Below are positions 18,324-43,070 of a stretch of DNA of 64,000 nucleotides, one piece after another. Within the stretch, counting starts at the first letter, position 1; each line of letters opens with the position of its first letter. The stretch spans positions 124,001-188,000 of the forward strand of contig NZ_STFX01000001.1 of the NCBI RefSeq assembly GCF_005222915.1. Reading direction: 5' to 3'. The DNA is from Rhizobium sp. FKL33. GTDB lineage: Bacteria > Pseudomonadota > Alphaproteobacteria > Rhizobiales > Rhizobiaceae. The notes under the pieces were generated by a model. It saw only the letters and a program-made list of their open reading frames with translations, was not told the DNA's origin and made no database searches. The translations under genes were made by a program, and so were the position numbers.

Positions 18324-19337
18324 TCAGAGTTCCGGGATGTTTTCGCGAAACACCACCTGCAGCCGCGGCGCGTGATAGTCGAAACGCTTTCCGAGCACCG
18401 CATGGCTGAGCATGGCGATGGCCTCGCGCGCCTCGACGCGCGGATTCTGGTCGATGACCGCATCCATCGCCCCGGATAGGAGAAGAAGCTTGGACGATTC
18501 TGTCAGTTCATGACCGATGAAGATGATGGATTTCGATCGGCCGGCTTCGGAGATCGCCTGGCCGATGCCGGCATTGCCGGCGCCGATATTGTAGATTCCG
18601 ACCAGATCCGGATGCCGCGCCAGAAGGGCGGCCGCTTCCTCATAGGCGCGCTGGCGGTCGTCGCGCACTTCCCTGAGTTCCACCACCTCGAGGTGCGAAA
18701 ACTCCTCCGACAGAATGTGCCGGAAGCCCATCTCACGCTCTTCATGGCCGCGATAGGAGAGGGAGCCGGCGAACAGCGCCACTTTACGATTTTCGCCCGG
18801 AGGCAGGAAACGACCCAATAGATAGCCGGCTAAACGACCGGCGGCGCGATTGTCGATGCCGACATAGCCGGTGCGCGGCACATGCAGGATATCGGACACC
18901 AGCGTGACCACGGCAACACCTGCATCCGCCAGCATGCGCATGGCCTCGCGCACGGCGGGGTGATCGAGCGCAATCAGGCCGACGCCCTGGCTTTCGCCGC
19001 GCAAACCCATCAGCGTCTCGGCGAGCGTGATGGGATTGAAGCCCTCCACCTCATGGATGCGGCAATCGATGATTTCCTGGGCCGCGCATTGCCGTTCGAT
19101 CTGCGCCTTCAGCGTCTTGATGAAGGAATTGGTGCCCTGCGGCAGCACGAAATCGAGCCTGATGCGTTCCGACGAAGCGTCGCCGGCGCCGAAATAGCCG
19201 AGGCGCCTCGCAGTTTCCATCACGATCGAACGGGTGCGTTCGCTCACGCCGGAGCGATTGTTGAGCACGCGGTCGACGGTGGCGGTGGAGACGCCGGATT
19301 CCCGCGCAATATCAAAGAGTGTCGACCGCAAGCCCAT
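18324..19337 (-). CDS. LacI-family transcriptional regulator
   Basis: DNA-binding repressor of the LacI/PurR type, 337 residues from MGLRSTLFDIARESGVS. The helix-turn-helix (about residues 5-24) and hinge helix are clear in STATVDRVLNN and ERTRSIVMETARRLGY. The rest is a periplasmic-binding-protein-like sensor domain that should bind a sugar or derivative. An upstream ATG at 19352 is possible but adds only MLTGI. It is divergent from the sugar ABC operon, across 264 bases containing a palindromic operator candidate. It is therefore the likely regulator of that operon. Confidence 0.92.
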   Translation of the reverse strand: MGLRSTLFDIARESGVSTATVDRVLNNRSGVSERTRSIVMETARRLGYFGAGDASSERIRLDFVLPQGTNSFIKTLKAQIERQCAAQEIIDCRIHEVEGFNPITLAETLMGLRGESQGVGLIALDHPAVREAMRMLADAGVAVVTLVSDILHVPRTGYVGIDNRAAGRLAGYLLGRFLPPGENRKVALFAGSLSYRGHEEREMGFRHILSEEFSHLEVVELREVRDDRQRAYEEAAALLARHPDLVGIYNIGAGNAGIGQAISEAGRSKSIIFIGHELTESSKLLLLSGAMDAVIDQNPRVEAREAIAMLSHAVLGKRFDYHAPRLQVVFRENIPEL

Positions 19338-19351
19338 GATTCCCGTCAGCA

Positions 19352-19373
19352 TTTATGATGTAAAATGATGTAA
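19352..19373. repeat. Direct repeat at the LacI gene start
   Basis: Two ATGATGTAA units occur 9-10 bases apart, overlapping the possible upstream start of the regulator. They share the GATGT half-site of the palindrome at 19538 and could be an autoregulatory half-operator. Confidence 0.3.
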
Positions 19374-19572: not shown

Positions 19573-19616
19573 CCATCATGCAGAGGATGGGAGGTCCGCT
19601 GCAAAGGGAGGAAAAT

Positions 19617-21227
19617 ATGTCCACTTCGTTTCGCGTGTCGCGACGCGGCTTCTTGAGCGCGTCCTCACGACTGGCCGGCGTCACCGCCGCCATCGGCATC
19701 GCCCCGCAATTCATTCGACCCGGCCGCGCATTTGCGGCCGATGCGCTGGCCCCCGGCATGATCGGCGGGCCGACCGGCTTCGATGGCGCCGAGCGCTATC
19801 AATATGGTCCCGATACGCCCGAGGGCAGGGCGATCGAGGCGGCCAAGGCGCTGAAGGGCGCCGGCAAGGCGCCGGCCAAGATCGTGCTCGGCCTGTCCGA
19901 CGGTTCGATCGGCCAGTTGACGCAACCGTTCCCCAAAGGCGCGCCGTCGATCAAGGAGCTGTGGGAAAAAGAGACCGGCATCACGCTGGAAATCGTCGGC
20001 GTTCCCAACGGCCAGGAATTCACCAAGACGATGCAGGACATCTCCACCAAGGGTGGAGCCTTCGACATCTATGCGGTGGAATGGAACCGTCTGGGCGATC
20101 TCGCCGAAACCGGCGGCATCATCGCGCTCGACGACTATGTCGCGGCCCATAAGCCGGAATGGGACGATCCCGAGCGTGGCTATGTTGGCGGCCAGGCCGG
20201 CGTTTCGCTGCTCAACCAGTATCGCGGCCAGACCTATGGCGTGTCACTGGATGGCGACTTCCAGACCTGGAACTACCGCACCGACCTGTTCAACGACGAG
20301 GCGGAAAAAAAGGCCTTCTCCGACAAGCACGGCTATGAGCTCGCGCCGCCGAAAACCTGGAAGCAGCATTCCGACATCGCCGCTTTCTTCCATCGTCCTG
20401 ACAAGGGCCTGTTCGGCTCGACCGACCTGCGCAATCAGGGCTGGGGCTACACCAACTGGTATCAGCGCTATGTGTCGATGGGCAATCCCAACCAGTATCT
20501 GTTCGACGACAGCGGCGCGCCGCTGATCAATTCCGACGCCGGCGTCGCCGCCACGCTGGAATATGTGGACTCGCTGTCGCATCATTCGCCGGATGCGATT
20601 TCCTGGGGCTGGCCGGAGCAGTATGGCAATTTCGCCAATGCCGGCGCCGCCATGACCTGCGCCTTCTCCAACCTGCCGAAATTCCTCGACAATGCCGGCA
20701 ATACCGGCTCGAAGGTCACCGGCAAGATCGGCTCGATGCTGCCGCCGGGCCGCGAAGTCGACGGCAAGCTGATCCAGCGCACCGTGCTCTGGCTCAATCT
20801 CTCAGCTTCGGTGTCCTCGCAGAGCAAGAACCCGGAAGCCTGCTATCTGCTGCTACAATGGCTCGGCTCCAGCCGCATCTATTCCTGGATGACGGCCAAT
20901 CCGGGCGGCTATTTCGATCCGTTCCAGCTCGCCAACTTCTCCGATCCGCTCGTGCGCGAGACCTATCACGATTACCATATGGACATCGTGAGGGAGAGTG
21001 TGGCGCGGACCGTGCCGACGATCAACTATCCCGGCGCGACCGCCTTCCACAATGCGCTGGACGAGAATCTGATGGCGGCGCTGACCAAGGCGAAGACCCC
21101 GGAACAGGCGATGGCCGACACCGAGACGCAGTGGAAGCGCATTGCCCGCCGCACCGGCGAGGACAAGCTGATCGAGGCGATCAAGGCCAACAAGGCGGCC
21201 TGGCCGACCATCACCGACGCCGCCTGA
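19617..21227 (+). CDS. Sugar ABC transporter substrate-binding protein (Tat-exported, long form)
   Basis: Periplasmic solute-binding protein of a carbohydrate-type importer, 536 residues. That is longer than the usual 410-450 but similar to the long binding proteins of GlpV-type glycerol transporters. The N-terminus MSTSFRVSRRGFLSASS carries a twin-arginine motif followed by a hydrophobic stretch and a likely cleavage after AFA, so it should be exported folded by Tat. AGGGAGGA just upstream fixes the start at 19617. It is the first gene of the operon driven from the LacI-controlled promoter and is followed by a hairpin that may protect its mRNA. Confidence 0.88.
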   Translation: MSTSFRVSRRGFLSASSRLAGVTAAIGIAPQFIRPGRAFAADALAPGMIGGPTGFDGAERYQYGPDTPEGRAIEAAKALKGAGKAPAKIVLGLSDGSIGQLTQPFPKGAPSIKELWEKETGITLEIVGVPNGQEFTKTMQDISTKGGAFDIYAVEWNRLGDLAETGGIIALDDYVAAHKPEWDDPERGYVGGQAGVSLLNQYRGQTYGVSLDGDFQTWNYRTDLFNDEAEKKAFSDKHGYELAPPKTWKQHSDIAAFFHRPDKGLFGSTDLRNQGWGYTNWYQRYVSMGNPNQYLFDDSGAPLINSDAGVAATLEYVDSLSHHSPDAISWGWPEQYGNFANAGAAMTCAFSNLPKFLDNAGNTGSKVTGKIGSMLPPGREVDGKLIQRTVLWLNLSASVSSQSKNPEACYLLLQWLGSSRIYSWMTANPGGYFDPFQLANFSDPLVRETYHDYHMDIVRESVARTVPTINYPGATAFHNALDENLMAALTKAKTPEQAMADTETQWKRIARRTGEDKLIEAIKANKAAWPTITDAA

Positions 21228-21300: not shown

Positions 21301-22161
21301 ATGTCCCGTTCCCCCGTTTTCGAGCTGATCCGCTATGGCGCCATTGTTCTGGCGATGGCGATCACGCTCGTGCCCATTCTGTGGATGGCCTCGATGGCCT
21401 TCAAGCCGATCGCCGAATGGTCGGCCGCAGGCGCCAATCTCACCTGGTGGCCGAAAGAGCCGACGCTCGACAATTTCCGCTTCATCTTCGGCACATCTTC
21501 GAGCGACCTGATCGTGGCGCTCGACCGCACGGCGGCCAAACCCATCCTGTCCTCGCTGCTGTCGGCGGTGTTCGGCACGCTGATCGCCATGATCGCCGGC
21601 ACATCCGCCGCTTACGGCCTGTCGCGCTTCGGCTCGGGGCAAAACCTGCCGCTCGCGCTGATCCAGCTCCGGCTGTTTCCGCCGATGGCGGTGATGATCC
21701 CGGTGATGATCATGTGGGCCTTTCTCGGCCTGGTCGACACCTGGTGGGGCCTGGCGCTGATCTATGGCATCGTCACGCTGCCCTTCGCCTTCTGGCTGAT
21801 GAAGACGTTTTTCGACGACATGCCGCGCGAAATCGAAGACGCCGCCCGCGTCGAGGGCTGCTCGCGCTTCCGCGTCTTCACCCGCATCACGCTGCCGATG
21901 ATGCGCGCGCCGCTCGCAAGCTCCGCTCTGTTCGTCTTCATTCTCAACTGGTCGGATTATCTGATCGGCCTGCTCCTGACCACGCGCGAATGGGTGACGA
22001 TCCCGGTCTATATGGCGTCGCTGTCGTCGTCGATGACCGGCCAGCTCTATGGCGCGAAAGCCGCCCTCGGCCTGATCGCCGCCGTGCCGCCCGTGATCAT
22101 GGGCATCGCCATCCAGAAACATCTGGTGCGCGGCCTGACCTTCGGAGCGCTGAAGCAATGA
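21301..22161 (+). CDS. Carbohydrate ABC transporter permease (MalG type)
   Basis: Inner-membrane permease of 286 residues with about six hydrophobic helices. The cytoplasmic EAA loop reads [21 protein letters not shown], matching the EAA---G---------I-LP consensus that docks the ATPase. It overlaps the next permease by 4 bases (ATGA), showing translational coupling. MalG-type before MalF-type is the reverse of the common order. The substrate is unknown; neighbours point to a sugar or polyol. Confidence 0.9.
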
Positions 22162-23123
22162 CCGACGCGCTCGCTTCCTCGACGGACCTCATCGCCATGC
22201 AGACCACCGACACCACCAGCAAGGACGTCGAAAGCGGCCGGCTCGGCTTCCGGCTGACGCTGCCCGCGCAGATCCTCGTCCTGTTCATTTCCGTCTTTCC
22301 GCTGCTGATGCAGCTTTATATCAGCCTCACCGACTGGTCGCCGCTCGATGGCGTCGGCTGGTGGATGGCCTGGGAAAGCTGGAACACGTTCGCCAATTAC
22401 ACCGATCTCGCCGTCGACACCCGCTTCTGGGATGCGATGGGCCGCACGCTGCTGGTCATGGCCGTCTGCGTGCCGGCCGAATTCCTGCTCGGCTTCGGGC
22501 TGGCGCTGCTGTTCATGGACGACTTCCGCGGCAAGCGGCTGTTCTACTCGATCCTCCTGATGCCGATGATGGTGGTGCCTGCGGTCGCCGGCTACATGTT
22601 CTTCATGCTGTTCCAGTCAGGCGGACCGGTGAACGACATCATTTCCAGCCTGATCGGCCAGCCATTTTCGCTCGCCTGGTTGTCGAGCCCGCAATGGGCG
22701 CTGATCGCGGTGATGATCGCCGATGTCTGGCAATGGACGCCGCTGATGTTCCTGATCCTGCTCGCGGGCCTCGCCGGCGTGCCGGATGACCAGCTGAAGG
22801 CCGCGACGCTGCTCGGCGCCTCCTGGCCACAGAAATTCCGCACCATCATCCTGCCGAAGATGAAGACGATCATCATCATCGCGCTGGCGATCCGGGTGAT
22901 CGAAAATTTCAAGATCTTCGACACGCTCTACATCATGACCGGCGGCGGCCCGGGCGTCGCGACCGAAACCATCTCCGTCTACATCTACAAGGTCACCCAG
23001 AACGATCTGATCTGGGGCTATGTCGCAGCCATCGCGCTCGCCATCCTGATCGTCCTGTCGGTGCTGGCCAATTTCGCCATCTCGCGCATGAACCGGGCGC
23101 GCAATGCGGGGAGCGCGGCATGA
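22158..23123 (+). CDS. Carbohydrate ABC transporter permease (MalF type)
   Basis: Partner permease of 321 residues, starting [11 protein letters not shown] at the ATG overlapping the previous stop. After a polar N-terminal tail of about 38 residues come six or so hydrophobic helices. The EAA loop has [21 protein letters not shown], and [17 protein letters not shown] near the C-terminus is typical of MalF/UgpA proteins. It overlaps the downstream ATPase gene by 4 bases. Confidence 0.9.
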
Positions 23124-24208
23124 CCTCTATTCACCTCAAGCAATTGACCAAGAGTTTCGGCGCATTCCAGGCGCTAAAGACCATGGACCTGAAAATCGAG
23201 GACGGCGAGTTCGTGGCGCTTTTGGGTCCTTCGGGCTGCGGCAAGTCGACGACGATGAACATGATCGCCGGCATGGAAGACCCGACCAGCGGCTCCATCC
23301 TGTTTGACGATCGCGACATGACCGGCGTGGCGATGGGCCGGCGCGGCGTGGGCTTCGTGTTCCAGAACTACGCGATCTTCACCCATATGAGCGTTTACGA
23401 CAATCTGGCTTACGGGTTGCGCATGCGCAAGCTGCCGACGGCGGAGATCGACCGTCGTGTGAAGCAGATGGCGGAGTTCCTGCAACTCGGCCCGCTGCTG
23501 TCGCAACTCTCGGCGAAACTGTCAGTCAACATCCTGCAGCGGCTGGCGATCGGCCGTTCGGCGATCGTCGAGCCGGCGATCTTCCTGCTCGACGAACCCC
23601 TGTCGAATGTCGACGCCGCCTTCCGCGCTGTGATGCGCACCGAACTGAAGCATCTGCAGCGGCAATTCCGCCAGACCATGGTCTATGTCACCCATGACCA
23701 GCTGGAAGCCATGACCATGGCCGACCGGATCGCGGTGATGGATCACGGCGTCTTGCTGCAGAGCGGTTCGCCCGTCGATGTCTACAACAATCCGAGCAGC
23801 ACGTTCGTCGCCGGCTTTCTGGGATCGCCGGGCATGAACCTCATCCGCGGCGAACTCGTCGACCGCGCCGATGCGCTGCATGTCGATCTCGGCGTTTTCG
23901 GCCTGTCGGAGGCGTTGGAGCCTTCATTGGCAAGAGCGGCGAAAACGGCCAGGACCCGCAGCGTCACTTACGGCTTCCGGCCGGAACAGGCTCAGATCGA
24001 GCCCTCGTCTTCGGGATTGCCGGTGTTTTTCGTCGAGCGGATCGGCTCGCGCACCATCGTTCATCTGGGAACCGAGGGCGCGGTGATCAAGCTCGTGCTC
24101 GGCAATGACGCCGGTTTCGACGTCGGCCAGACGGCGCGGCTCACGGTCAATCCCGGTTCGGTTCGCCTGTTCGACGGCGAGACCGGCCTTGCGATCAGGG
24201 AGGCGTGA
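23120..24208 (+). CDS. ABC importer ATPase 1, degenerate signature motif
   Basis: MalK/UgpC-type ATPase of 362 residues with a C-terminal TOBE-like regulatory domain. Walker A is GPSGCGKST (36-44), the Q-loop is VFQNYAIF, Walker B is IFLLDEP with catalytic Glu159, and the switch His192 is in VTHDQ. The ABC signature is not LSGGQ but LSVNI (134-138), although the flanking residues QRLAIGR still align. The protein therefore keeps its own nucleotide-binding and catalytic residues but cannot offer a normal signature to a partner. A second, different ATPase follows immediately, so a heterodimer is likely. Confidence 0.9.
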   Translation: MTSIHLKQLTKSFGAFQALKTMDLKIEDGEFVALLGPSGCGKSTTMNMIAGMEDPTSGSILFDDRDMTGVAMGRRGVGFVFQNYAIFTHMSVYDNLAYGLRMRKLPTAEIDRRVKQMAEFLQLGPLLSQLSAKLSVNILQRLAIGRSAIVEPAIFLLDEPLSNVDAAFRAVMRTELKHLQRQFRQTMVYVTHDQLEAMTMADRIAVMDHGVLLQSGSPVDVYNNPSSTFVAGFLGSPGMNLIRGELVDRADALHVDLGVFGLSEALEPSLARAAKTARTRSVTYGFRPEQAQIEPSSSGLPVFFVERIGSRTIVHLGTEGAVIKLVLGNDAGFDVGQTARLTVNPGSVRLFDGETGLAIREA

Positions 24209-24210
24209 TC

Positions 24211-25266
24211 ATGGCCAGCATCGCATTTCGCAATGTCACCAAGCGGTTCGGCAGCACACTCGCAGTCGACAATGTCTCCTTCGAGATCGCCGACAATGAG
24301 TTCTTCTGCTTCTTCGGACCGCCTCTGTCGGGCAAGTCGACCATCCTGAAACTCATTCTCGGACTGGAGACGCCGGATACGGGTGAAATCCTGATCGGCG
24401 GCAAGCTCGCCAATGCGCTGTCACCGGCCGAGCGCAATGTCGCCATGGTGTTCCAGAACCTGGCTCTCTTTCCGCATATGTCGGCGGAAGAGAATGTGCG
24501 TTTTCCGCTGGTCGAGCGGCGCGTGCCGGAAGACAAGATCAAGGCGCGCGTGGCGGCGGTGGCGGCCAAGCTGCATATCGGCCATCTCCTGCACAAGCCG
24601 CCGGCGCAGCTTTCGGGCGGTGAACGCCAGCGCGTCGCCATTGCCCGCGCTCTGGTGCGCGATCCCGCCGCCTATCTGATGGACGACCCGATTTCGGCGC
24701 TTGATGCTCGGCTACGCGAGGAAACCCGCGTCGAGCTCAAGCGCATCCAGCGCGAACTCGGCCATACGCTTGTCTATGTCACCCATGACCAGGAAGAGGC
24801 GATGTCGATCGCCGACCGCATGGCGATCATGGAACACGGCGCAATCCGCCAGATGGGTGCGCCCTCGGAGATCTATGACCGGCCAGCCAGCGATTATGTC
24901 GCGCGTCTGCTGGGCTCGCCGGCGATGAATATCCTGCCGATCGAGGCGGGCGCTGCGGCCTCCGGCGCGATCGATCTCGCGGGGCTCGCGCCGCCCGCAG
25001 CGTCAAGCGTCGGCATCCGTCCCGAAGATCTCAGGCCGGAACCCTGGAGCGCGGACCGGACGGGACAGCCCGCCCGCGTGTTCGAGGTCGAGCCGCTCGG
25101 CGGCTACACGGTGGTGACGTTTGCGGTCGGGGAGGGCCGCTTGCGGGCGCTGTTGCGCGGACAGCCGCGCATCGAGATCGACAGCGCCGTCGCGCTCAGC
25201 TGCGACCCGCGCCGCATTCACTTTTTTGGTCCGGACGGGCGCGCGCTCGCTCCCGCCGGCGCATGA
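24211..25266 (+). CDS. ABC importer ATPase 2, catalytic Glu replaced by Asp
   Basis: Second MalK-like ATPase of the same transporter, 351 residues from the ATG at 24211, which has AGGGAGG 7 bases upstream; a GTG at 24205 is an alternative. Walker A is GPPLSGKST (36-44), keeping GxxxxGKST but with Leu in place of the usual second Gly. The signature LSGGE (134-138) is intact. Walker B is AYLMDDP, so the catalytic base is Asp159 rather than Glu. The switch His is kept in VTHDQ. Its intact signature would complement the degenerate one of the preceding protein. A C-terminal TOBE-like domain is present. Confidence 0.9.
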   Translation: MASIAFRNVTKRFGSTLAVDNVSFEIADNEFFCFFGPPLSGKSTILKLILGLETPDTGEILIGGKLANALSPAERNVAMVFQNLALFPHMSAEENVRFPLVERRVPEDKIKARVAAVAAKLHIGHLLHKPPAQLSGGERQRVAIARALVRDPAAYLMDDPISALDARLREETRVELKRIQRELGHTLVYVTHDQEEAMSIADRMAIMEHGAIRQMGAPSEIYDRPASDYVARLLGSPAMNILPIEAGAAASGAIDLAGLAPPAASSVGIRPEDLRPEPWSADRTGQPARVFEVEPLGGYTVVTFAVGEGRLRALLRGQPRIEIDSAVALSCDPRRIHFFGPDGRALAPAGA

Positions 25267-25278
25267 TGGGAGGAGAAC

Positions 25279-26370
25279 ATGGCTGACGCCAAGGGTTTCA
25301 AGCCGGATGTGGAGGTCCGGGTCAAAGACTACAGGATCGGCGCGATCGGCGCCGGCATGATCATGGCCGAATGCCATCTGGCCGCCTACAAGGAAGCGGG
25401 TTTCACGGTGGCGGCCATCGCGTCGCGCACCAGATCCCGCGCCGAGAGCGTGGCTAGCCGTTGGGGCATTCCCAGGGTGCACGACACGCCGGACGCGCTG
25501 ATCAAGGATACCGACGTCGAGATCCTCGACATCGCCTATCCGCCCGACCAGCAGCCGGCGCTGATCCGCGCGGCGCTGAAGGAACCGCATATCAAGGCGA
25601 TCCTAGCCCAGAAACCCCTGGCGCTGTCGCTCGACGAGGCGCGCAAGCTGCGCGACGAGGCGAAAGCCGCCGGCAAGATCCTCTCGGTCAACCAGAACAT
25701 GCGTTACGACCAGTCGATGCGGGTGCTTAAGCAGATCCTCGACAAGGGCGAACTCGGCAAAGTGGTGATCGCGACGATCGACATGCGCGCCATTCCGCAT
25801 TGGCAGACATTCCTCGAAGGTCTGGATCGGCTGACGCTCGCCAATATGAGCGTGCATCATCTCGACGTGCTGCGCTTCCTGTTCGGCGATCCCGAGGAAA
25901 TCTACACCGCGACGCGATCCGACCCGCGCACGCAATTCGCCCATAAGGACGGCATCACCGTCTCCACCATCAAGTTTCCCGGTAATGTGCTGGCGGTGTC
26001 GATGGAGGATGTCTGGGCCGGGCCGCGCGAGGCGGGCTTCGACAGCGATTTCTACATCAAATGGCGGGTCGAGGGCACAGATGGCGTGGCGCAGGGCACG
26101 ATCGGCTGGCCCGACGGTTCGGCCTCAACACTCACTTACGCCTCGAAAACCACCACAGGCGGCCAATGGGTGACCCCGACCTGGGAGACGATGTGGTTCC
26201 CGCACGCCTTCATCGGCGTGATGGAGCAGCTGCAATATGCCGTCAAAACGGGAGAAACGCCGGCGTTGAACGTCGCCGACAATGTGAAAACCATGGCGCT
26301 GGTCGAAGCCGGCTATCGATCCATGGACGAAGGCCGAGCCGTCAAGCTCGCCGAAATCGCCATCGACTGA
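25279..26370 (+). CDS. Gfo/Idh/MocA-family oxidoreductase
   Basis: NAD(P)-dependent sugar or polyol dehydrogenase of the glucose-fructose oxidoreductase / inositol dehydrogenase family, 363 residues. The Rossmann motif is IGAIGAGMI near residues 21-29. The usual EKP motif that positions the substrate is QKP here (LAQKPLALSLDEA). A conserved His pair lies in MSVHHLDVLRFLFG. It lies 12 bases after the second ATPase and belongs to the same operon, so it probably oxidises the imported sugar or a derivative. The exact substrate is unknown. Confidence 0.88.
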   Translation: MADAKGFKPDVEVRVKDYRIGAIGAGMIMAECHLAAYKEAGFTVAAIASRTRSRAESVASRWGIPRVHDTPDALIKDTDVEILDIAYPPDQQPALIRAALKEPHIKAILAQKPLALSLDEARKLRDEAKAAGKILSVNQNMRYDQSMRVLKQILDKGELGKVVIATIDMRAIPHWQTFLEGLDRLTLANMSVHHLDVLRFLFGDPEEIYTATRSDPRTQFAHKDGITVSTIKFPGNVLAVSMEDVWAGPREAGFDSDFYIKWRVEGTDGVAQGTIGWPDGSASTLTYASKTTTGGQWVTPTWETMWFPHAFIGVMEQLQYAVKTGETPALNVADNVKTMALVEAGYRSMDEGRAVKLAEIAID

Positions 26371-26396: not shown

Positions 26397-27311
26397 ATGA
26401 TGCAAACAGGTATTTTCACCGGCTATTTCCCCTACAGCCTAGAGGAAACCGCCAAGAAGATCCGCGACATCGGCTTCAACACCGTGCAGCTCGACATGCA
26501 TTTCAAGGATCTGGACCTGTCGGCCGGGCAGATCACCAAGGACAAATGCGTAACGATCCGCGAGACGTTCCGCGATCACAATCTGCCGATCTGCTGCATT
26601 TCCGGCTACACCAACATCATTCATCCCGACAAGGCCGAGCGCGAGCGGCGGGTGGGCTATCTCAAGGAGATCATCGCGCATGCGCAATATCTCGGCACGC
26701 CCTATGTGATCTCCGAGACCGGAACCTTCAACACCGACTCCGATTGGGTGCATCATCCCAAGAACAAGACGGAGGAGGGCTTCGAAGAGTGCCGCAAGGT
26801 CATCGCCGATCTGTCGCAATTCGCTTACGATCACGGCGCGGTCTTTCTGCTCGAAACCTATGTGAACAATGTCGTTGGCTCGGTCGAAGAGACGGTGAAG
26901 ATGTTTGCGCAGGTCGATCACCCCGGCCTCGGCCTGTTGATGGACCCGACCAACTATTTCGAGACCCACAATATCGATCGCATGGATGAAATCCTCAATC
27001 AGGTGTTCGACACGCTGCAGGACAAGATCAAGATCGGCCATGCCAAGGACGTCAAGCGCTCGGGCGACGACAAGTCGGAAAAGCATGCCGATATCGGCGA
27101 TGAGGACGCGTTGGAAAGCCACACTTTCCGGGGCGTCGGCGAAATCGAACTGCCGGCTCCGGGCCTGGGCTCGCTGAACTACGATCTCTACCTCAAGCTT
27201 CTTGCGCGCAAGCATCCGAACATTCCGGTGATCATCGAGCATCTGGAAGAGTCCGACGTGCCGCGCGCCAAGAAATTCCTCGACGGAAAGCTGAGAGCGC
27301 AAGGTCTCTGA
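26397..27311 (+). CDS. Sugar phosphate isomerase/epimerase (AP endonuclease 2-like TIM barrel)
   Basis: Xylose-isomerase-like TIM-barrel protein of 304 residues, family of IolE, IolI and hydroxypyruvate isomerase. Likely metal-binding acidic and His residues are seen in ISETGTFN, LMDPTNY, KIGHAKDV and VIIEHLEE. AGGGAGG lies 9 bases before the ATG at 26397, which sets the start although the frame is open further upstream. In combination with the preceding oxidoreductase it resembles inositol- or keto-sugar-converting pairs, where a dehydrogenase product is isomerised or dehydrated. Confidence 0.87.
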   Translation: MMQTGIFTGYFPYSLEETAKKIRDIGFNTVQLDMHFKDLDLSAGQITKDKCVTIRETFRDHNLPICCISGYTNIIHPDKAERERRVGYLKEIIAHAQYLGTPYVISETGTFNTDSDWVHHPKNKTEEGFEECRKVIADLSQFAYDHGAVFLLETYVNNVVGSVEETVKMFAQVDHPGLGLLMDPTNYFETHNIDRMDEILNQVFDTLQDKIKIGHAKDVKRSGDDKSEKHADIGDEDALESHTFRGVGEIELPAPGLGSLNYDLYLKLLARKHPNIPVIIEHLEESDVPRAKKFLDGKLRAQGL

Positions 27312-27387: not shown

Positions 27388-28569
27388 ATGGTTGAACTTT
27401 ATGGCGGCCAGCGGTCACGTCGTGACCTCGCGGCGCATGCGGGATCGTTCGGACAATTTGCCGGCGTCAGGCTGATGACGTTGGGTGACGGCATTGAGCG
27501 CGGCATCCGCATGCTGGAATTTCGAAGCGGCACGGGCCTGCGCTTCACCGTGCTCATCGACCGCGCCTTCGACATCGCCGATTGCGACTATCGCGGCATG
27601 GCGGTGGGCTGGCATTCGCCGGCCGGTTTCCGCCATCCCGGCCTGCATGAGTATGAAGGCGAGGGCGGGCTCGCCTGGCTGCGCTCCTTTTCCGGCCTGA
27701 TAGTGACCTGCGGGCTCGACCATATCCTGTTCATGCATGACGAGCCGGCGGATCACTATGTCTATGGGCCGCGCAAGACGGTCAGCCACTCCATTCATGG
27801 CCGCATCGGCACGATCCCCGGTAAGCTCATCGGTTACGGCGAGCGTTGGGACGGCGACGAGATGGTGCTGTGGTGCGAAGGCTCGGTCATCCAGGGCACG
27901 GTGTTCGGCGAACATCTGGAGCTCATCCGCCGCATCGAGATTACTGCGGGGACCAACGACATCCGAATTTCCGACCGCGTCATCAATCGCGGCTTTTACC
28001 GAACGCCGCATATGTATTGCTATCACATCAATGTCGGCCATCCCGTGCTGTCCGAGGGATCGCGTTACATCGCGCCGATCAAGGACGTGGTCTGGGCCGC
28101 GCATGCGGGCGACGATTATCGCAAGCAGAAGGTCGGCTATCGCACGATGCCGGCGCCGCAGCTCGGTTTCCACGAGCAGGTCTGGCAGCATGAACTGGGC
28201 GCCGACGCCGCAGGCGAAGTCCCGGTGGCGCTGGTCAATGATGCGCTGGGCCTCGGCTTCGAAGTGACGACGCGCAAGGACCAGTTTCCCTGCCAGTATG
28301 AATGGCAGAATCTGCAGGCTGGCCAATATGCCCTGGGCATCGAGCCTTCTACCAACCATGTGCTCGGCAAGGGCTATGCGAAGGAAAAGGGTGAACTGAT
28401 CTGGCTCGAACATGGCGACGAGCGCGCCTATCAATCGACCTTCCGCATCCTCACCAGCACTGATGAGATCGCCGGTTCCGAAGGCCGCATCCGCGCCATC
28501 GCCGCGCAGCCCGATGAGGACTATCCGCAGCCGTCCGGCAAGCATCTGCCGATCGGAGGCCGCGCATGA
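27388..28569 (+). CDS. DUF4432 (aldose 1-epimerase-like) protein
   Basis: A 393-residue protein of the galactose-mutarotase fold, matching what I know of DUF4432. It has the N-terminal GIRMLEFRSGTGLRFTVLIDRAFDI segment with the DR pair and a central CYHINVGHPVLSEGSRY segment carrying the His expected of mutarotase-like sites. IEPSTNHVLGK lies near the C-terminus. Probable role: anomer or epimer interconversion, or sugar binding, in the pathway encoded by this operon. It overlaps the SDR gene by 4 bases. The reaction is not known to me. Confidence 0.78.
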   Translation: MVELYGGQRSRRDLAAHAGSFGQFAGVRLMTLGDGIERGIRMLEFRSGTGLRFTVLIDRAFDIADCDYRGMAVGWHSPAGFRHPGLHEYEGEGGLAWLRSFSGLIVTCGLDHILFMHDEPADHYVYGPRKTVSHSIHGRIGTIPGKLIGYGERWDGDEMVLWCEGSVIQGTVFGEHLELIRRIEITAGTNDIRISDRVINRGFYRTPHMYCYHINVGHPVLSEGSRYIAPIKDVVWAAHAGDDYRKQKVGYRTMPAPQLGFHEQVWQHELGADAAGEVPVALVNDALGLGFEVTTRKDQFPCQYEWQNLQAGQYALGIEPSTNHVLGKGYAKEKGELIWLEHGDERAYQSTFRILTSTDEIAGSEGRIRAIAAQPDEDYPQPSGKHLPIGGRA

Positions 28570-29321
28570 TCGATATGACCGGAAAGACCATTCTTTATAC
28601 CGGCGGCGCCGGCGGGCTGGGGCTTGAGACGACGATGCATTTCCTCGACGCCGGCGCACGCGTGGTGGTGATCGATCGCGACGCCGCAAAGATGGCGGCG
28701 CTGGAAGAGGCGGCGAAGGCGCATCACGCCGAGCGGCTGCTGGTGCGCGATTTCGATCTCGCCGATCTCGCGGGCCTGAAGCGGGAACTCGATTTCCTGC
28801 AGGACAAGCATGGCGGCTTCGACGTGGTGATCAACAATGCCGCGATCTATCCGTCCAAGCCCTTCGAGAATTACACGATCGAGGAGCATCAGATGGTGCA
28901 GCGCGTCAATGTCGACGCGGCCATCGTCTGCGTGCAATCGGCGCTGCCGCATATGAAAGCGCGGCAATGGGGGCGGATCATCAATATCGCCTCGATCACC
29001 CTGTATGGCGGCTGGGCGCTGCTGTCGCCTTACGTCCAGTCCAAGGGCGCGCTGGTGGGCCTCGCCCGCGCCTGGGCGCGGGAGTTCGGTTCATATGGCG
29101 TCACCGTCAACGCGATTTCGCCGGGCGCCTTTCCGACCGACGCGGAAAAGATCCATCCAGATCCGGAAGGCTATACCCGCCATGTGCTGGATCACCAGGC
29201 CGTGAAACGGCGCGGTTCGCCCGCCGACATCGCCAATGCGCTGATGTTCCTCGCCTCAGACGGCGCCGGCTTCATCACCGGCCAGACGCTGAATGTCGAT
29301 GGCGGATGGGTGATGCATTGA
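28566..29321 (+). CDS. Short-chain dehydrogenase/reductase
   Basis: Classical SDR of 251 residues. The cofactor motif is TGGAGGLG (TGxxxGxG) at about residues 12-19, the structural motif is NNAA, and the catalytic residues are a Ser in NIASITLYGG and Tyr/Lys in YVQSK. The PGAFPTDAEK region after the active site and the C-terminal GQTLNVDGGW are standard. Asp following the second beta strand (VVIDRD) suggests NAD preference. It should oxidise a hydroxyl of the sugar or sugar acid handled by this operon. Confidence 0.9.
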   Translation: MIDMTGKTILYTGGAGGLGLETTMHFLDAGARVVVIDRDAAKMAALEEAAKAHHAERLLVRDFDLADLAGLKRELDFLQDKHGGFDVVINNAAIYPSKPFENYTIEEHQMVQRVNVDAAIVCVQSALPHMKARQWGRIINIASITLYGGWALLSPYVQSKGALVGLARAWAREFGSYGVTVNAISPGAFPTDAEKIHPDPEGYTRHVLDHQAVKRRGSPADIANALMFLASDGAGFITGQTLNVDGGWVMH

Positions 29322-30463
29322 TGAAGCGCTATCATGCCCTGACCTGGGATCATCCCCGGGGTTACAATGCGCTGGCGGCAGCGGCGGACAAGGCGCGCGC
29401 CGAGGGACTGGTCGACATCGTCTGGGACAAGCAGCCGCTCGAAGGCTTCGAATCCCATCCGATCGCCGATCTCTGCGCGCGCTATGACCTCGTCGTGCTC
29501 GATCATCCGCATGTCGGCGAAGCGGTGGCGGAGACCTGCCTCAGACCGCTGGAGGAGGTTTTCAGCGCTGGCGTCCTCGCGGACATCGTCGCGGCGACCA
29601 TCGGTCCGTGCCTTCAGAGTTACCATTACGAGGGGGCGACCTGGGCGCTGCCGCTCGATGCCGCAACGCAGGTGATGGCGCTCAGGCCCGACCTCGTGGA
29701 GCGGCCGCCGCGGACCTGGAAAGAGGTGGTGGACCTCTCCTGGTCCGGCGGCAAGGTGGCGCTGTCGCTGGCGGGACCACATGCGGTCCTCAGTTTCCTG
29801 TCGATTGCCGCAGCCTATGGCGAAGAGGCCGGCCACAATGGTCACCAACTGGTGACGGAAGAGATAGGCCTGATCGTCTATGATCTCATGAACCTTCTGG
29901 CGTCCCGCAGTCCCGCATCCGTGCGCGCGCTCAATCCCATCGGTATTCTCGGCCATATGGCGGCGCACGACGATGTCGCGCTGTGTCCGCTGATCTATGG
30001 CTATGTCAATTATTCCGCTCCGAGCGCTGGCCGCGCGCTCGGCTTCCATAACGCGCCGGTGACCAGGGCTGGTGGACGGCCGGGTTCGACGCTGGGCGGC
30101 ACCGGCATCGCCGTGTCGCGCCGTTGCGACATGACGCCGGAGCTGATCGAACATCTGAGATGGCTGATGGGTGAGGAGGCGCAAACGCGCTTCATACCTG
30201 GCCATGAAGGCCAGCCGTCGCGCAGGTCGGCCTGGAGCGACGAGGCGGTGAATGCGCGCTGGGGCCAGTTCTATCGCAACACGGCCGCGACGCTCGAAAG
30301 CGCCTATGTCCGACCGCGTTTCAACGGCTATATCCGCTTCCAGACGGAAGCCTCGGCGCTGTTGCGCGACTGTTTCGCCAACAAAACCAATGGAAAAGCC
30401 GCCATCGCAGCGCTGAACGCGCTGTTTGCAAAACATGCGCCCGAGAAGGATTACGCGTCATGA
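29321..30463 (+). CDS. Solute-binding-protein-like protein without signal peptide
   Basis: A 380-residue protein whose middle and C-terminal parts resemble family 1 extracellular solute-binding proteins (YNALAAAADKARAEGL, PLDAATQVMALRPDLV, RTWKEVVDLS, STLGGTGIAVSRRCD). It begins MKRYHALTWDHPRGY with no signal peptide, lipobox or membrane helix, so it should remain in the cytoplasm. The ATG at 29321 shares one base with the SDR stop codon. The frame continues upstream only as an out-of-phase reading of the SDR gene. The crotonase gene starts within its stop codon. An intracellular sugar- or CoA-ester-binding role is a guess. Confidence 0.7.
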   Translation: MKRYHALTWDHPRGYNALAAAADKARAEGLVDIVWDKQPLEGFESHPIADLCARYDLVVLDHPHVGEAVAETCLRPLEEVFSAGVLADIVAATIGPCLQSYHYEGATWALPLDAATQVMALRPDLVERPPRTWKEVVDLSWSGGKVALSLAGPHAVLSFLSIAAAYGEEAGHNGHQLVTEEIGLIVYDLMNLLASRSPASVRALNPIGILGHMAAHDDVALCPLIYGYVNYSAPSAGRALGFHNAPVTRAGGRPGSTLGGTGIAVSRRCDMTPELIEHLRWLMGEEAQTRFIPGHEGQPSRRSAWSDEAVNARWGQFYRNTAATLESAYVRPRFNGYIRFQTEASALLRDCFANKTNGKAAIAALNALFAKHAPEKDYAS

Positions 30464-31232: not shown

Positions 31233-32378
31233 ATGCAGGGAGTGAGGATTGTGAATTTGACTGCGAAACAGTTTGCAAGCGGAACATTTGTCGGCCGGAT
31301 CTGGCTGGAGGCCGCGGATGGCCCGGCGCTGGTGAGCTTGCGCGACGGCATGCTGCATGACGTGACCTCGAAGGCGGCGCCGACCATGCGCGATCTGCTG
31401 GAAATGGACGATCCCGTCGCCTGGCTCGCCGCCAATCCGGGAACGCCGGTCATGTCGCTCGAAGACGCTGCTGCCCAAGGCCTGCTTCTTGCGCCTTGCG
31501 ATCTCCAGGCGGTGAAGGCCTGCGGCGTGACCTTCGCCCGCTCCATGGTCGAGCGCGTGATCGAGGAGAAAGCGGCAGGCAATCCGGCGCTGGCCGAAAA
31601 GATCCGCGAACGCGTCACGTCGATCATCGGCGACAGCCTGCGCAACCTGAAGGCCGGCTCGGACGCGGCGATGAAGGTCAAGGCGGCGCTGATCGAGGAA
31701 GGCGTCTGGTCGCAATATCTCGAAGTCGGCATCGGCCCTGATGCCGAAGTGTTCAGCAAGGCCCAGCCCATGGCATCCGTCGGCTATGGCGCCGAGGTCG
31801 GCCTGCATCCGATTTCCAAATGGAACAATCCCGAGCCGGAAGTGGTGCTCGCGGTCAATTCCAAGGGCGTGGTGCAGGGCGCGACGCTCGGCAACGACGT
31901 CAATCTGCGCGATGTCGAAGGACGCTCGGCGCTGCTGCTCGGCAAGGCCAAGGACAACAACGCCTCCTGCTCGATCGGCCCGTTCATCCGTCTGTTCGAC
32001 GCGACTTACTCCATCGATCATGTCCGCAACGCCGACCTGACGCTTCGGGTGGAAGGCGAAGATGGCTATGTGCTCGACGGCAAGAGCTCGATGAAGGAAA
32101 TCAGTCGCGATCCGCTCGATCTCGTCAGCCAGACCATCGGCCGGCATCATCAATATCCGGATGGGTTCATGCTGTTCATGGGCACGCTGTTCGCGCCCGT
32201 CGAGGATCGCGATCACAAGGGCCAAGGCTTCACCCACAAGCTCGGCGACGTGGTGACCATCGCCAATCCCGAATTGGGCAGCCTGACCAACACCGTGCGG
32301 CTGTCGACGGAATGCAAGCCCTGGACATTCGGCGTCCGCGCCCTGATGGCCAATCTCGCCAAGCGCGGACTGCTCTAA
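31233..32378 (+). CDS. Fumarylacetoacetate hydrolase (FAH) family sugar-acid enzyme
   Basis: FAH-superfamily enzyme of 381 residues. Metal ligands lie in NNPEPEVVLAV (the E-x-E pair), and GNDVNLRDVEGRSALLLGKAKD is the GNDxxxRDxE segment. That segment, together with SCSIGPF, resembles 2-keto-3-deoxy-pentonate dehydratases of the AraD group, which make alpha-ketoglutarate semialdehyde. Diketo-deoxy-fuconate hydrolases belong to the same superfamily and cannot be excluded. It is the last gene of the operon, 2 bases after the crotonase gene, and converges with the metallo-hydrolase gene. Confidence 0.85.
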   Translation: MQGVRIVNLTAKQFASGTFVGRIWLEAADGPALVSLRDGMLHDVTSKAAPTMRDLLEMDDPVAWLAANPGTPVMSLEDAAAQGLLLAPCDLQAVKACGVTFARSMVERVIEEKAAGNPALAEKIRERVTSIIGDSLRNLKAGSDAAMKVKAALIEEGVWSQYLEVGIGPDAEVFSKAQPMASVGYGAEVGLHPISKWNNPEPEVVLAVNSKGVVQGATLGNDVNLRDVEGRSALLLGKAKDNNASCSIGPFIRLFDATYSIDHVRNADLTLRVEGEDGYVLDGKSSMKEISRDPLDLVSQTIGRHHQYPDGFMLFMGTLFAPVEDRDHKGQGFTHKLGDVVTIANPELGSLTNTVRLSTECKPWTFGVRALMANLAKRGLL

Positions 32379-35586: not shown

Positions 35587-36517
35587 CAAAGGCTCCCTTC
35601 TTCTTGGCGACCCAGAGATAGATCCCCATGATCACGATCGGCACGACGGAGAAGGCGGCGGCGAGCGGAATGTTGCCGGCCGTGCCCTGCTGGGTATAGA
35701 CGGCCTGACCGATGAACAGCCTCGACGAGCCGATAATGCCGGGGATGATGTAGTCGCCGAGCGTGAGCGAAAAGGTGAAGATCGAGCCTGCGACAATGCC
35801 GGGCAAAGCGAGCGGCAACAGCACATGCCGGAAGGTTTTCCCCGGCGCTGCGCCGAGATCATAGGAGGCCTCGATCAGATTGCCGGGCACGCGTTCGAGC
35901 GCCGCCTGGATCGGCAGGATCATATAGGGCAGCCAGATATAGACAAAGACGAGAAACGTGCCGGTAAAGCTGATCGACAGCGACGTGCCGCCGACGATGG
36001 GCAGAGCGAGATAGGCGTCGAGCAGAAAGCTCAGACCGATCTTCTCGAACGCCCAGCTGATGATGCCTTCCTTGGCGAGGATCATCTTCCAGGCGTAGAT
36101 CTTGACGAGATAGGACGACCAGAGCGGCAGCATCACGCCGAGATAGAACAGCGCCTTCCATTTGCCCTTGGCGTAACGCGCCGCGAAATAGGCAATCGGG
36201 AAGGCAATGATGGCCGAGGCCACGGTCACCAGCGCCGCCATGGTGACGGTGCGGAGGATGATGTCGATGTTGGACCGCCGCAACAGTTCGCCATAGGTCG
36301 ACAGCGTCAGCTCGTATTTCACCTGACCGGTGAAATCGTCGAGCATGAAGAAGCTCTGCAGCAGCAGCGTCAGAAGCGAACCGATATAGATGACGCCGAG
36401 CCAGAGCAGCGGCGGGGCGAGCATCAGCGCGAGCAGTAATTTTGGCCGCCGCCACAGCGTCGCCGAAGCCCGGCTGATCACGCCATCCTGGGAGGGAGAA
36501 ACCGCCGCGCTGGTCAT
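35576..36517 (-). CDS. Polyamine-type ABC transporter permease (PotB/YdcU-like)
   Basis: Inner-membrane permease of 313 residues. A polar N-terminal segment ([14 protein letters not shown]) precedes the first helix ([23 protein letters not shown]). The EAA loop is [25 protein letters not shown]. It overlaps the ATPase gene by 4 bases and the next permease by 11, so the importer is translationally coupled. Confidence 0.9.
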
Positions 36518-37515
36518 GCCGCGTCATCCAGAAGGTGAAGGGCGGATTTCGGGAAGCTGAGCGTCACCGCTTCGCCTTCGCCCGGCACGTGAGCGCCCGG
36601 GGCGAGATTGGCGTGCAGCCTGACATCGCCTGCATCCACCGCGATGCGGGTCACCGAGCCGAGGAAAGCGCGGTTGGCGAGCTGACCGGAAAGGACGGCA
36701 TTGTCCGCGCCGCCGTCGCCGAGGCCGATCATCTCCGGCCTCAGGCTCGACCAGCGGCGCTGGCCGATCAGTTTCTCGGTGGTCGCCGGCGGAAGGAGGT
36801 TGGAAGAGCCGACGAAATCGGCGACGAATTTCACCTTGGGACGCTGGTAGATGTCCTCGGGCGTGCCGGCCTGGACGATGCCGCCATTGTTGAACACGGC
36901 GACGCGGTCGGCCATCGACAGCGCTTCGCCCTGATCGTGGGTCACAAAGATGAAGGTGATGCCGAGGCTCTTCTGCAGCGCCTTCAATTCTTCCTGCATG
37001 GCTTCACGCAGTTTGAGGTCGAGCGCGCCGAGCGGCTCGTCGAGCAACAGCACTTTCGGCTTGTTGACCAGCGCGCGGGCGAGCGCCACGCGCTGACGCT
37101 GGCCGCCTGACAGCTGTCCCGTCTTGCGTCCGCCGTAACCGCCGAGCTTGACGAGCTCCAGCGCCTTCTCGGCTTCGCGCAGCCGCGTCGTCTTGTCGAC
37201 GCCCTTGACCATCAGCCCATAGGCGACATTGTCGAGGATCGTCATATGCGGGAAGAGCGCGTAGTCCTGGAAGACGGTGTTGACCTGGCGCTTCCACGGC
37301 GGCACGCCATTGGCGCTCTCGCCGAAAATGGAGATTTCGCCGCCGGTCGGCTGTTCGAAGCCGGCCACCAGCCGGAGACATGTGGTCTTGCCTGACCCTG
37401 AGGGCCCGAGCATGGCGAAGAATTCGCCCTCGGCGATGTCGAGATCGACCCCGTCGACCGCCTTGACGCTGCCGAAATGGCGCGACACGGCGCGGAAGGA
37501 TACAGCCGCTACCAT
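36514..37515 (-). CDS. Polyamine-type ABC transporter ATPase (PotA/YdcT-like)
   Basis: ATPase of 333 residues energising the polyamine-type importer. Walker A GPSGSGKTT, signature [14 protein letters not shown], Walker B VLLLDEP with the catalytic Glu, and switch His in VTHDQ are all intact. The C-terminal TOBE region follows (LIGQRRWSSLRPEMI). It overlaps the downstream permease by 4 bases and is separated from the binding-protein gene by two GC-rich hairpins. Confidence 0.93.
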   Translation of the reverse strand: MVAAVSFRAVSRHFGSVKAVDGVDLDIAEGEFFAMLGPSGSGKTTCLRLVAGFEQPTGGEISIFGESANGVPPWKRQVNTVFQDYALFPHMTILDNVAYGLMVKGVDKTTRLREAEKALELVKLGGYGGRKTGQLSGGQRQRVALARALVNKPKVLLLDEPLGALDLKLREAMQEELKALQKSLGITFIFVTHDQGEALSMADRVAVFNNGGIVQAGTPEDIYQRPKVKFVADFVGSSNLLPPATTEKLIGQRRWSSLRPEMIGLGDGGADNAVLSGQLANRAFLGSVTRIAVDAGDVRLHANLAPGAHVPGEGEAVTLSFPKSALHLLDDAA

Positions 37516-37570
37516 AATGAAGTCTCCGTCATAGAAAGAATTGCGGCCTCAAGGCCATGCCCTGCGCTTG

Positions 37571-42005: not shown

Positions 42006-43067
42006 TCAGCGAATCCGGTCGCCGTCGAGGGTGAAATAGCGGGCGTTGAGGGTGTCGAAGCGCATCTCGATCATGTCGCCGACGCGCGCTGTCGTCTTGC
42101 GCTTTTCCGCCACCACGACAGCGCCATCGGGCAGGGCGGCGTGGACATAGGCCGTAGCCCCGAGATGCTCCACCACATCCGCCCGTGCCGGGAAAGCGAC
42201 GCCATCGGCTTCGTCGAGATGTTCGGGCCTGAGGCCGATGAGCAGTGTCGTCGACGGTGCAAGCGGCGCCGACAGAGCCGGGCAGGGCATGGAGATCCCG
42301 GCGAATTCGATGCGCGCGCCATCTCCTGAAACTGCGGCCTGCAGGAAATTCATCCGCGGCGAGCCGATGAAGCCGGCGACGAAAGCATTGTCGGGATCCT
42401 CATAAAGCGTCACCGGCGAGCCGATCTGCTCGACGCGCCCGGCGCGCAGCACGACGATCTTGTCGGCGAGCGTCATCGCCTCGGTCTGGTCGTGGGTGAC
42501 GTAGATGATGGTGTTCTTCAGCGTCTGGTGCAGCTTGGCGATCTCCACCCGTGTCTGCACCCTGAGTTCGGCGTCGAGATTGGAGAGCGGCTCGTCGAAC
42601 AGGAAGACATCAGGATTGCGCACGATCGCCCGGCCGATGGCGACGCGCTGGCGCTGGCCGCCGGAGAGCGCTGCGGGCTTGCGGTCGAGCAGCGGCGTGA
42701 GCTGCAGGATGCCGGCGGCGCGCGCCACCTTCTCCTCGATCTCGGCCTTGGGCGCTTTCGCCATGCGCAGGCCGAAACTCATGTTTTCAGCCACCGTCAT
42801 ATGCGGATAGAGCGCATAGGACTGGAAGACCATGGCGACGCCGCGTTCGGAAGGCTCGGTGTCATTCATCCTGACGCCGCCGATGAACAAATCGCCGCCG
42901 GTGATCTCTTCCAGTCCTGCGATCATGCGCAGCAGAGTGGATTTGCCGCAGCCGGACGGGCCGACGAAGACGGTGAATTCGCCCCGTTCGATCTGCATGG
43001 ACACGCCATGGATGACGTGAGCTGCGCCATAGGACTTTGTGACGTTGGCGAGTTCGATCTGATGCAT
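42006..43067 (-). CDS. Sugar ABC transporter ATPase (UgpC/MalK type)
   Basis: ATPase of 353 residues with intact Walker [10 protein letters not shown], signature [14 protein letters not shown], Walker [14 protein letters not shown] and switch His in VTHDQTEA. The C-terminal TOBE region contains [15 protein letters not shown], the conserved RPEH-type motif of the sugar importer ATPases. It lies 3 bases after the second permease. All motifs are canonical, so this one should work as a homodimer, unlike the ATPase pair at 23-25 kb. Confidence 0.93.
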
Positions 43068-43070
43068 GGT

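Follow-up and report, generated by a model that had tools for sequence, protein, structure and literature searches.

A CUT1 Importer of Rhizobium sp. FKL33 With Two Complementarily Altered ATPases, Predicted to Form an Asymmetric Heterodimer

Introduction

The ATP sites of ATP-binding cassette (ABC) dimers are composite. MalK is a homodimer with two equal sites, and MalK-type importers of this build are a model system for a long-standing question, namely how much ATP an ABC importer hydrolyses per molecule. TAP1/2, TM287/288 and TmrAB are exporters, in which nucleotide-binding domain (NBD) and transmembrane domain (TMD) lie in one chain. Here we analyze two adjacent ATPase genes of a CUT1 (MalK-type) importer from Rhizobium sp. 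FKL33, located within a stretch of 64,000 nucleotides (positions 124,001 to 188,000 of contig NZ_STFX01000001.1, in a genome of 5.3 Mb) that we refer to as the window. A preliminary description of this DNA had proposed that their products, ATPase 1 and ATPase 2, form an asymmetric heterodimer with one consensus and one degenerate ATP site.

According to a review of exporters with degenerate sites, signature mutations occur in all human sites of this kind and the Walker B Glu-to-Asp replacement is the second most frequent change, while the ATP bound at such sites has been proposed to act as a hinge or glue, with residual hydrolysis that is apparently slow (PMC7756269). A figure legend aligns DppD and DppF of E. 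coli with consensus and degenerate sites (PMC12136057). The presence of two ATPases in a glycerol-type transporter is mentioned in PMC7912956, in the available parts of which their motifs are not discussed and the word "walker" is absent, and the available parts of PMC11223650 name GlpS and GlpT merely as ATP-binding proteins. Judging by the titles and beginnings of abstracts that were listed, we found no description of complementary lesions in GlpS/GlpT or in other CUT1 ATPases, which is not proof that none has been published.

Results

The two ATPases carry complementary motif changes

At residues 134-138, where the signature LSGGQ would be expected, ATPase 1 reads LSVNI; its Walker B (LLDEP) retains Glu159, and His192 is also present. 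ATPase 2 has an intact signature, LSGGE, and also keeps the Q-loop and His192, but its Walker A reads GPPLSGKST, with Leu39 in place of the second Gly and Lys42 kept, and its Walker B (MDDP) has Asp159. ATPase 2 may start at GTG 24205 or at ATG 24211, and its residue numbering follows the latter. These are the changes that the preliminary description had reported for each of the two proteins, and the sequence bears them out, as it does the statement that the window's two remaining MalK/PotA-type ATPases (36517-37548 and 42009-43070, both on the minus strand) are consensus. The features concerned, in window coordinates, are as follows.

23120..24208, plus strand: ATPase 1, predicted catalytic subunit (c), 362 amino acids; complete Walker A, Walker B and His, signature lost
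23519..23533, plus strand: ATPase 1 signature position LSVNI, codons 134-138, from the sequence; LSVN in 97/97 loci
23594..23596, plus strand: catalytic Glu159 of ATPase 1, kept, from the sequence
24205..25266, plus strand: ATPase 2, predicted non-catalytic Walker subunit (n); LSGGE intact, Walker A and B altered
24316..24342, plus strand: ATPase 2 Walker A GPPLSGKST, from the sequence
24610..24624, plus strand: ATPase 2 signature LSGGE, intact, from the sequence
24685..24687, plus strand: ATPase 2 Walker B Asp159 replacing Glu, from the sequence; Asp in 90/97 and Glu in 7/97 loci

In a dimer of the two proteins, the lesions of both subunits are predicted to meet at a single composite site and to leave the other site consensus, which is the arrangement that defines a degenerate-site heterodimer. 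In the species of the window, a homodimer of either protein would lack a complete consensus site.

The changes are conserved in orthologous loci

Relatives of ATPase 1 were searched for with peptide patterns covering neither the signature nor Walker B, and the best 80 of 534 were kept, a sample that is biased toward close relatives. In all 80 loci both ATPases were present, with LSVNI and Walker B Glu in ATPase 1 and LSGGE and Asp in ATPase 2. Because 80 of 80 fetched loci with ATPase 1 have both lesions, these do not represent a sequencing error; this explanation and that of a pseudogene were rejected, the motif changes being conserved in 98/98 loci. These 80 loci, a further 5 and 7, four plasmid loci and the window make up a set of 97 (94 different sequences for ATPase 1 and 95 for ATPase 2; not all loci are independent), within which identity falls to 48% for ATPase 1 and 45% for ATPase 2. 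One ortholog search gave 12 matches outside the own genome, comprising seven orthologous pairs and five canonical unpaired ATPases (L177-L181; L numbers are our locus labels) that served only as controls. ATPase 1 was matched in 168 plasmid records, five of which were examined, giving four orthologous pairs and a different pair, L184, that was set apart; the close match H3 was left out.

LSVN in ATPase 1, SGGE in ATPase 2 and the Walker A Lys of both proteins are found in 97/97 loci, and the ATPase 2 Walker B position is only ever Glu or Asp. LSVNI occurs together with a Walker B DD in 90 of the 97 loci and LSVNE together with DE in the other 7, with no mixed case; L193, added later, has LSVNE and DE, so that the totals become 90 and 8 of 98. 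The Walker B Glu of ATPase 1 is present in all 98. The eight pairs whose ATPase 2 keeps the Glu (L105-L109, L176, L183 and L193) have GPPS, GPPG or GPPA in the ATPase 2 Walker A, which in the Asp-carrying pairs is mostly GPPL (three exceptions, L025, L170 and L175). The expectation that the two lesions co-occur in orthologous pairs was correct for 90 of 98 pairs, but the remaining 8 retain the ATPase 2 Glu though the signature is gone, and strict co-segregation was rejected on that ground. The signature change is family-wide while the Glu-to-Asp change is not, and the two lesions are separable. Glu-to-Asp in ATPase 2 accompanies a change from Glu to Ile at the fifth signature residue of the partner: two residues of one composite site, one contributed by each protein, differ together.

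The two genes stay together

ATPase 1 and ATPase 2 are neighbours in 98/98 loci and lie on the same strand in 97/97, with a spacing, measured by alignment start, that ranges from overlap to about 206 nucleotides. The divergences of the two proteins match (r = 0.97 over 4656 locus pairs, a value that shared species history raises). When the search was started from ATPase 2, seven of the 385 genomes covered had a match, one of them the own genome, and ATPase 1 adjoined it in all seven; in one of these, L193, ATPase 1 is cut by the contig end.

We used unpaired ATPases of the same type as controls, and all 60 have SGG, Walker B Glu and the H-loop His. They comprise 37 from the own genome (two of them in the window), 16 from other genomes, L177-L181, L190 and L191, and are not all independent. 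The 45 best ATPase 1 matches of the own genome (E up to 1.6e-44) consist of these 37 and of eight proteins in four tandem pairs. Of 486 records matching ATPase 2, one was examined (L191, unpaired), and of 259 matching GlpT, four were examined, namely three GlpST pairs and the canonical, unpaired L190.

Other two-ATPase importers

The GlpSTPQUV transporter of Rhizobium leguminosarum resembles the window system: it too is a CUT1 importer, it has a solute-binding protein, two permeases and a pair of adjacent ATPases, and its lesions are complementary. The own genome carries a separate GlpS/GlpT locus, L086, adjoining genes that we read as glycerol-3-phosphate dehydrogenase and a DeoR-type regulator; here the GlpT signature is LTADL, and in GlpS Walker A is altered and Thr replaces the H-loop His. 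Complementary lesions were present in 26/26 complete pairs (the own one, 21 others, L153 and plasmid L187-L189; L131, cut by a contig end, was excluded), in which GlpT lacks SGG and the H-loop His of GlpS is replaced by Thr or Ser, usually together with an altered Walker A. These pairs include that of the betaproteobacterium Sphaerotilus and that of Rhizobium johnstonii 3841, whose glp genes are ordered as PMC7912956 describes for the R. leguminosarum glycerol transporter, which has been studied genetically. Among 190 genomes of the class, 23 had a GlpT. The ATPases of GlpST and of the window are, however, 32-36% identical, and the two systems differ in how the second site is altered: GlpS has lost the His but not the Walker B Glu, whereas the opposite is true of ATPase 2. 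The gene order is n-c in GlpST and c-n in the window, with different neighbours. The window pair is not a GlpST ortholog, since it branches apart from the own GlpST (L086) and its neighbours are not glp genes.

Further tandem pairs depart from consensus in other ways. In L087, a single locus, one subunit has LDAGS and the other GPPKAGK, a Walker B Asp and Ser for the H-loop His; this pair, which adjoins genes that we assigned from sequence as DhaK- and DhaL-like, was found in the own genome only (1/190). In the Phaeobacter pair L184, also a single locus, one subunit has MGGSQ and the other a Q-loop Glu and a Pro in place of the H-loop His. In GlpS/GlpT, L087 and L184 alike, the lesions are predicted to lie on one composite site. 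L085, located beside an FGGY kinase gene and found in 3/190 genomes, has one subunit with a Walker B Asp, Gln for the H-loop His and LSNGQ, and another with ISGGQ and a Q-loop Glu, a pattern seen in 3/3 loci. In L150, L151 and L152, which are tandem pairs from three of six surveyed genomes, among the matches listed, Walker B Glu and His are present in the two subunits alike, and the signature is LSGGE in one and either LAGGD or LSGGD in its partner; L151 lies beside a Dak1/Dak2 dihydroxyacetone kinase, and L150 and L152 beside phosphoenolpyruvate-utilising enzymes. The generalization that all tandem CUT1 ATPase pairs are asymmetric was rejected by these near-canonical pairs. The preliminary description had called asymmetry unusual for MalK-type importers and the other two window ATPases canonical; the window pair is nevertheless not a one-off, as GlpS/GlpT and other tandem pairs show the same property.

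Two further replacements were observed among these pairs. The Q-loop Gln is replaced by Glu in one ATPase each of L085 (L085:5766-6887, AFEGY) and L184 (L184:6056-7189, VFESL), and the D-loop Asp by Glu in the c subunits L085:5766-6887 (GQLEP), L087:5156-6238 (TNVEV) and L184:4989-6110 (SNLEA); the D-loop change is absent from the window pair.

Phylogeny

In a tree of 96 ATPases from which the motif columns had been removed, all 29 n subunits and the 3 second subunits of the near-canonical family fell on one side of a branch (support 82/88), which weakly suggests a common origin of the non-catalytic subunits of two-ATPase importers. With our own coding of states, this tree requires 3 changes at Walker B, 5 at the H-loop and 3 at the signature. 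We regard as most likely an old heterodimer that lost its second site by various routes, although several origins are also conceivable.

The operon and its family assignment

The ATPase genes are part of an operon preceded by a divergent regulator gene, with the gene order given here.

18324..19352, minus strand: LacI-type regulator, divergent from the operon (Pfam LacI and Peripla_BP_4)
19578..21227, plus strand: solute-binding protein SBP_bac_1, 549 amino acids counted from the first ATG (Pfam)
21301..22161, plus strand: permease subunit 1, from operon position and an L182 counterpart annotated as carbohydrate ABC transporter permease
22158..23123, plus strand: permease subunit 2, BPD_transp_1 (Pfam); followed by ATPase 1 and ATPase 2
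25279..26370, plus strand: Gfo/Idh/MocA oxidoreductase (Pfam; same order in L182 and L185)
26397..27311, plus strand: xylose-isomerase-like TIM barrel protein (Pfam; counterparts in L182 and L185)
27388..28569, plus strand: DUF4432 protein (Pfam; aldose 1-epimerase family by annotation in L182 and L185)
28566..29321, plus strand: short-chain dehydrogenase/reductase (SDR) oxidoreductase (Pfam; counterparts in L182 and L185)

The closest named relatives of the locus are Rhizobium contigs, with ATPase 1 identities of 96-97%. The order from regulator to SDR is kept in two annotated plasmid counterparts (Pseudosulfitobacter L182 and Pararhizobium), while the upstream neighbours differ in a distant Jannaschia pair. 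Downstream of the SDR gene, at 29321-30463 on the plus strand, we observed a solute-binding-protein-like gene (SBP_bac_8, 8e-6, slightly under the Pfam cut-off) with no obvious signal peptide by eye; the L182 cluster likewise has a second solute-binding protein after it. A fumarylacetoacetate-hydrolase family protein is encoded further downstream in the same direction (31233-32378, plus strand).

One SBP_bac_1 protein and two binding-protein-dependent permeases (permease 1 being assigned by position and annotated counterparts) identify the operon as CUT1. The UgpC profile matches over the length of the ATPases, at residues 1-358 (4e-108) and 3-346 (3e-102), both under the curated cut-off of 432 bits, and profile and PDB sequence matches together point to CUT1/MalK-type proteins that include the C-terminal domain. 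Monomer models were made from 27 orthologs, with mean predicted local distance difference test (pLDDT) scores of 69.8 for ATPase 1 and 81.1 for ATPase 2, and were weak around parts of the nucleotide-binding motifs. The best PDB matches of the ATPase 2 model by Foldseek were MalK-type chains, a match that confirms the family, not the mechanism. No two-ATPase CUT1 heterodimer was present among the listed PDB matches, as judged by molecule name.

Discussion

Two ATPase genes that are neighbours in all 98 loci encode proteins whose conserved lesions co-occur and would converge on one composite site, and in this respect the sequences support the asymmetric heterodimer of the preliminary description. 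We consider it probable (about 0.82) that the two proteins form an obligate NBD heterodimer of a CUT1 importer, with one site that hydrolyses ATP and one that holds it. Site 1, to which ATPase 1 contributes the Walker motifs and His and ATPase 2 the LSGGE, would be the consensus site that hydrolyses ATP and drives import. Site 2 would consist of the ATPase 2 Walker A (with its Lys kept), Asp159 and His together with the LSVNI of ATPase 1; it would bind ATP, hydrolyse it slowly or not at all, and serve as a hinge or clamp. The combination of a signature change with Glu-to-Asp is that of the exporters, and we infer that roughly one ATP would be spent per cycle. The window pair would then be one of several two-ATPase CUT1 importers, GlpST included, that have lost the second site in various ways. 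The assembly, the roles of the sites, the ATP stoichiometry and the ancestral state are all inferred from the sequences.

Alternatively, each ATPase may act as a homodimer or with another canonical MalK, the adjacency of the genes being an operon relic. ATPases common to several carbohydrate importers are known, MsmK being an example, and 37 of the 45 best matches in the own genome are unpaired ATPases of the same type. An ATPase 1 homodimer would, however, have the signature at neither site and an ATPase 2 homodimer would lack the Walker B Glu in 90/98 pairs, while a relic is at odds with adjacency in 98/98 loci and with the matched divergence (r = 0.97, again raised also by shared species history). 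We therefore regard this explanation as quite improbable. Still harder to sustain is plain decay, in which one subunit is becoming a pseudogene and the importer is failing. The motifs do depart from consensus, but the altered residues are as conserved as catalytic residues are (LSVN in 97/97 loci, Walker B limited to Glu or Asp, the Walker A Lys invariant), and the frames read are open. GlpST, moreover, is comparable in architecture, and glycerol use requires that transporter, according to the title of Ding et al. (2012) as cited in PMC7912956.

It is also conceivable, if unlikely, that both sites hydrolyse ATP, with Asp159 and LSVN(I/E) tuning the rate of the second and two ATP spent per cycle. 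Sites with Glu-to-Asp apparently still hydrolyse, albeit slowly (PMC7756269); ATPase 2 retains the H-loop His, Q-loop and Walker A Lys, and its Glu is kept in 8/98 pairs. Yet both glycines of the opposing signature are gone in 98/98 pairs, and the corresponding site of GlpST is without the His.

Several observations weigh against a hydrolysing and an ATP-holding site, or against the history proposed for them. ATPase 2 keeps its H-loop His, and a site with a Walker B Asp may still hydrolyse slowly (PMC7756269). A single event on the tree may underlie the 90/8 association. In the sister pair L184 the signature is MGGSQ rather than LSVN, and the 98/98 count is valid for the family as bounded here. 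The lesions of L085 do not all lie on one site, so that this pair fits less well, and near-canonical L150-L152 show that two-ATPase importers need not be asymmetric. With respect to the trees, the 82/88 value does not reach the level that the program takes as good support. The 96-ATPase tree does not recover the c subunits as one clade and leaves them unresolved among unpaired ATPases, although a single clade was not rejected (p = 0.367, approximately unbiased test). L184 c groups with window c (100/97) but L184 n with GlpS and L087 n (93/77), and an earlier tree of 32 own-genome ATPases, with motif columns included, placed window n away from GlpS, in a group with L085 n and L103, a canonical unpaired ATPase (83/89).

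If the one-site heterodimer is correct, these transporters would constitute a natural, conserved family of one-site importers which, together with GlpST and the near-intact and half-changed relatives, would make the question of ATP cost directly testable. Degenerate-site asymmetry would then extend beyond exporters and fused-NBD importers to binding-protein-dependent MalK-type importers. A more speculative reading, less likely than not, is that an old MalK-type branch, several members of which lie beside glycerol, dihydroxyacetone-kinase or similar small-polyol genes, swapped the symmetric pair for a one-ATP heterodimer and so obtained half-price import of low-yield C3-C4 carbon. Stages of such a change may then survive as the near-intact heterodimer (L150-L152), the pairs with the signature lost and the Glu kept (L105-L109, L176, L183, L193), and the window pair, in which both are changed.

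Among known systems, MalFGK2 and other MalK-type importers are the closest in family, as the best PDB sequence matches of the window ATPases are MalK-type chains. The window pair resembles TAP1/2, TM287/288 and TmrAB in having a signature change on one NBD and Glu-to-Asp on the other, at the same composite site (PMC7756269), whereas it differs from these exporters in belonging to a binding-protein-dependent importer with separate ATPases. RbsA/NupO is likewise an importer ATPase with one degenerate site, but there, according to PMC11466899, the two NBDs lie in one polypeptide, the second Walker A Lys is lost, and the transporters are type II importers and not CUT1.

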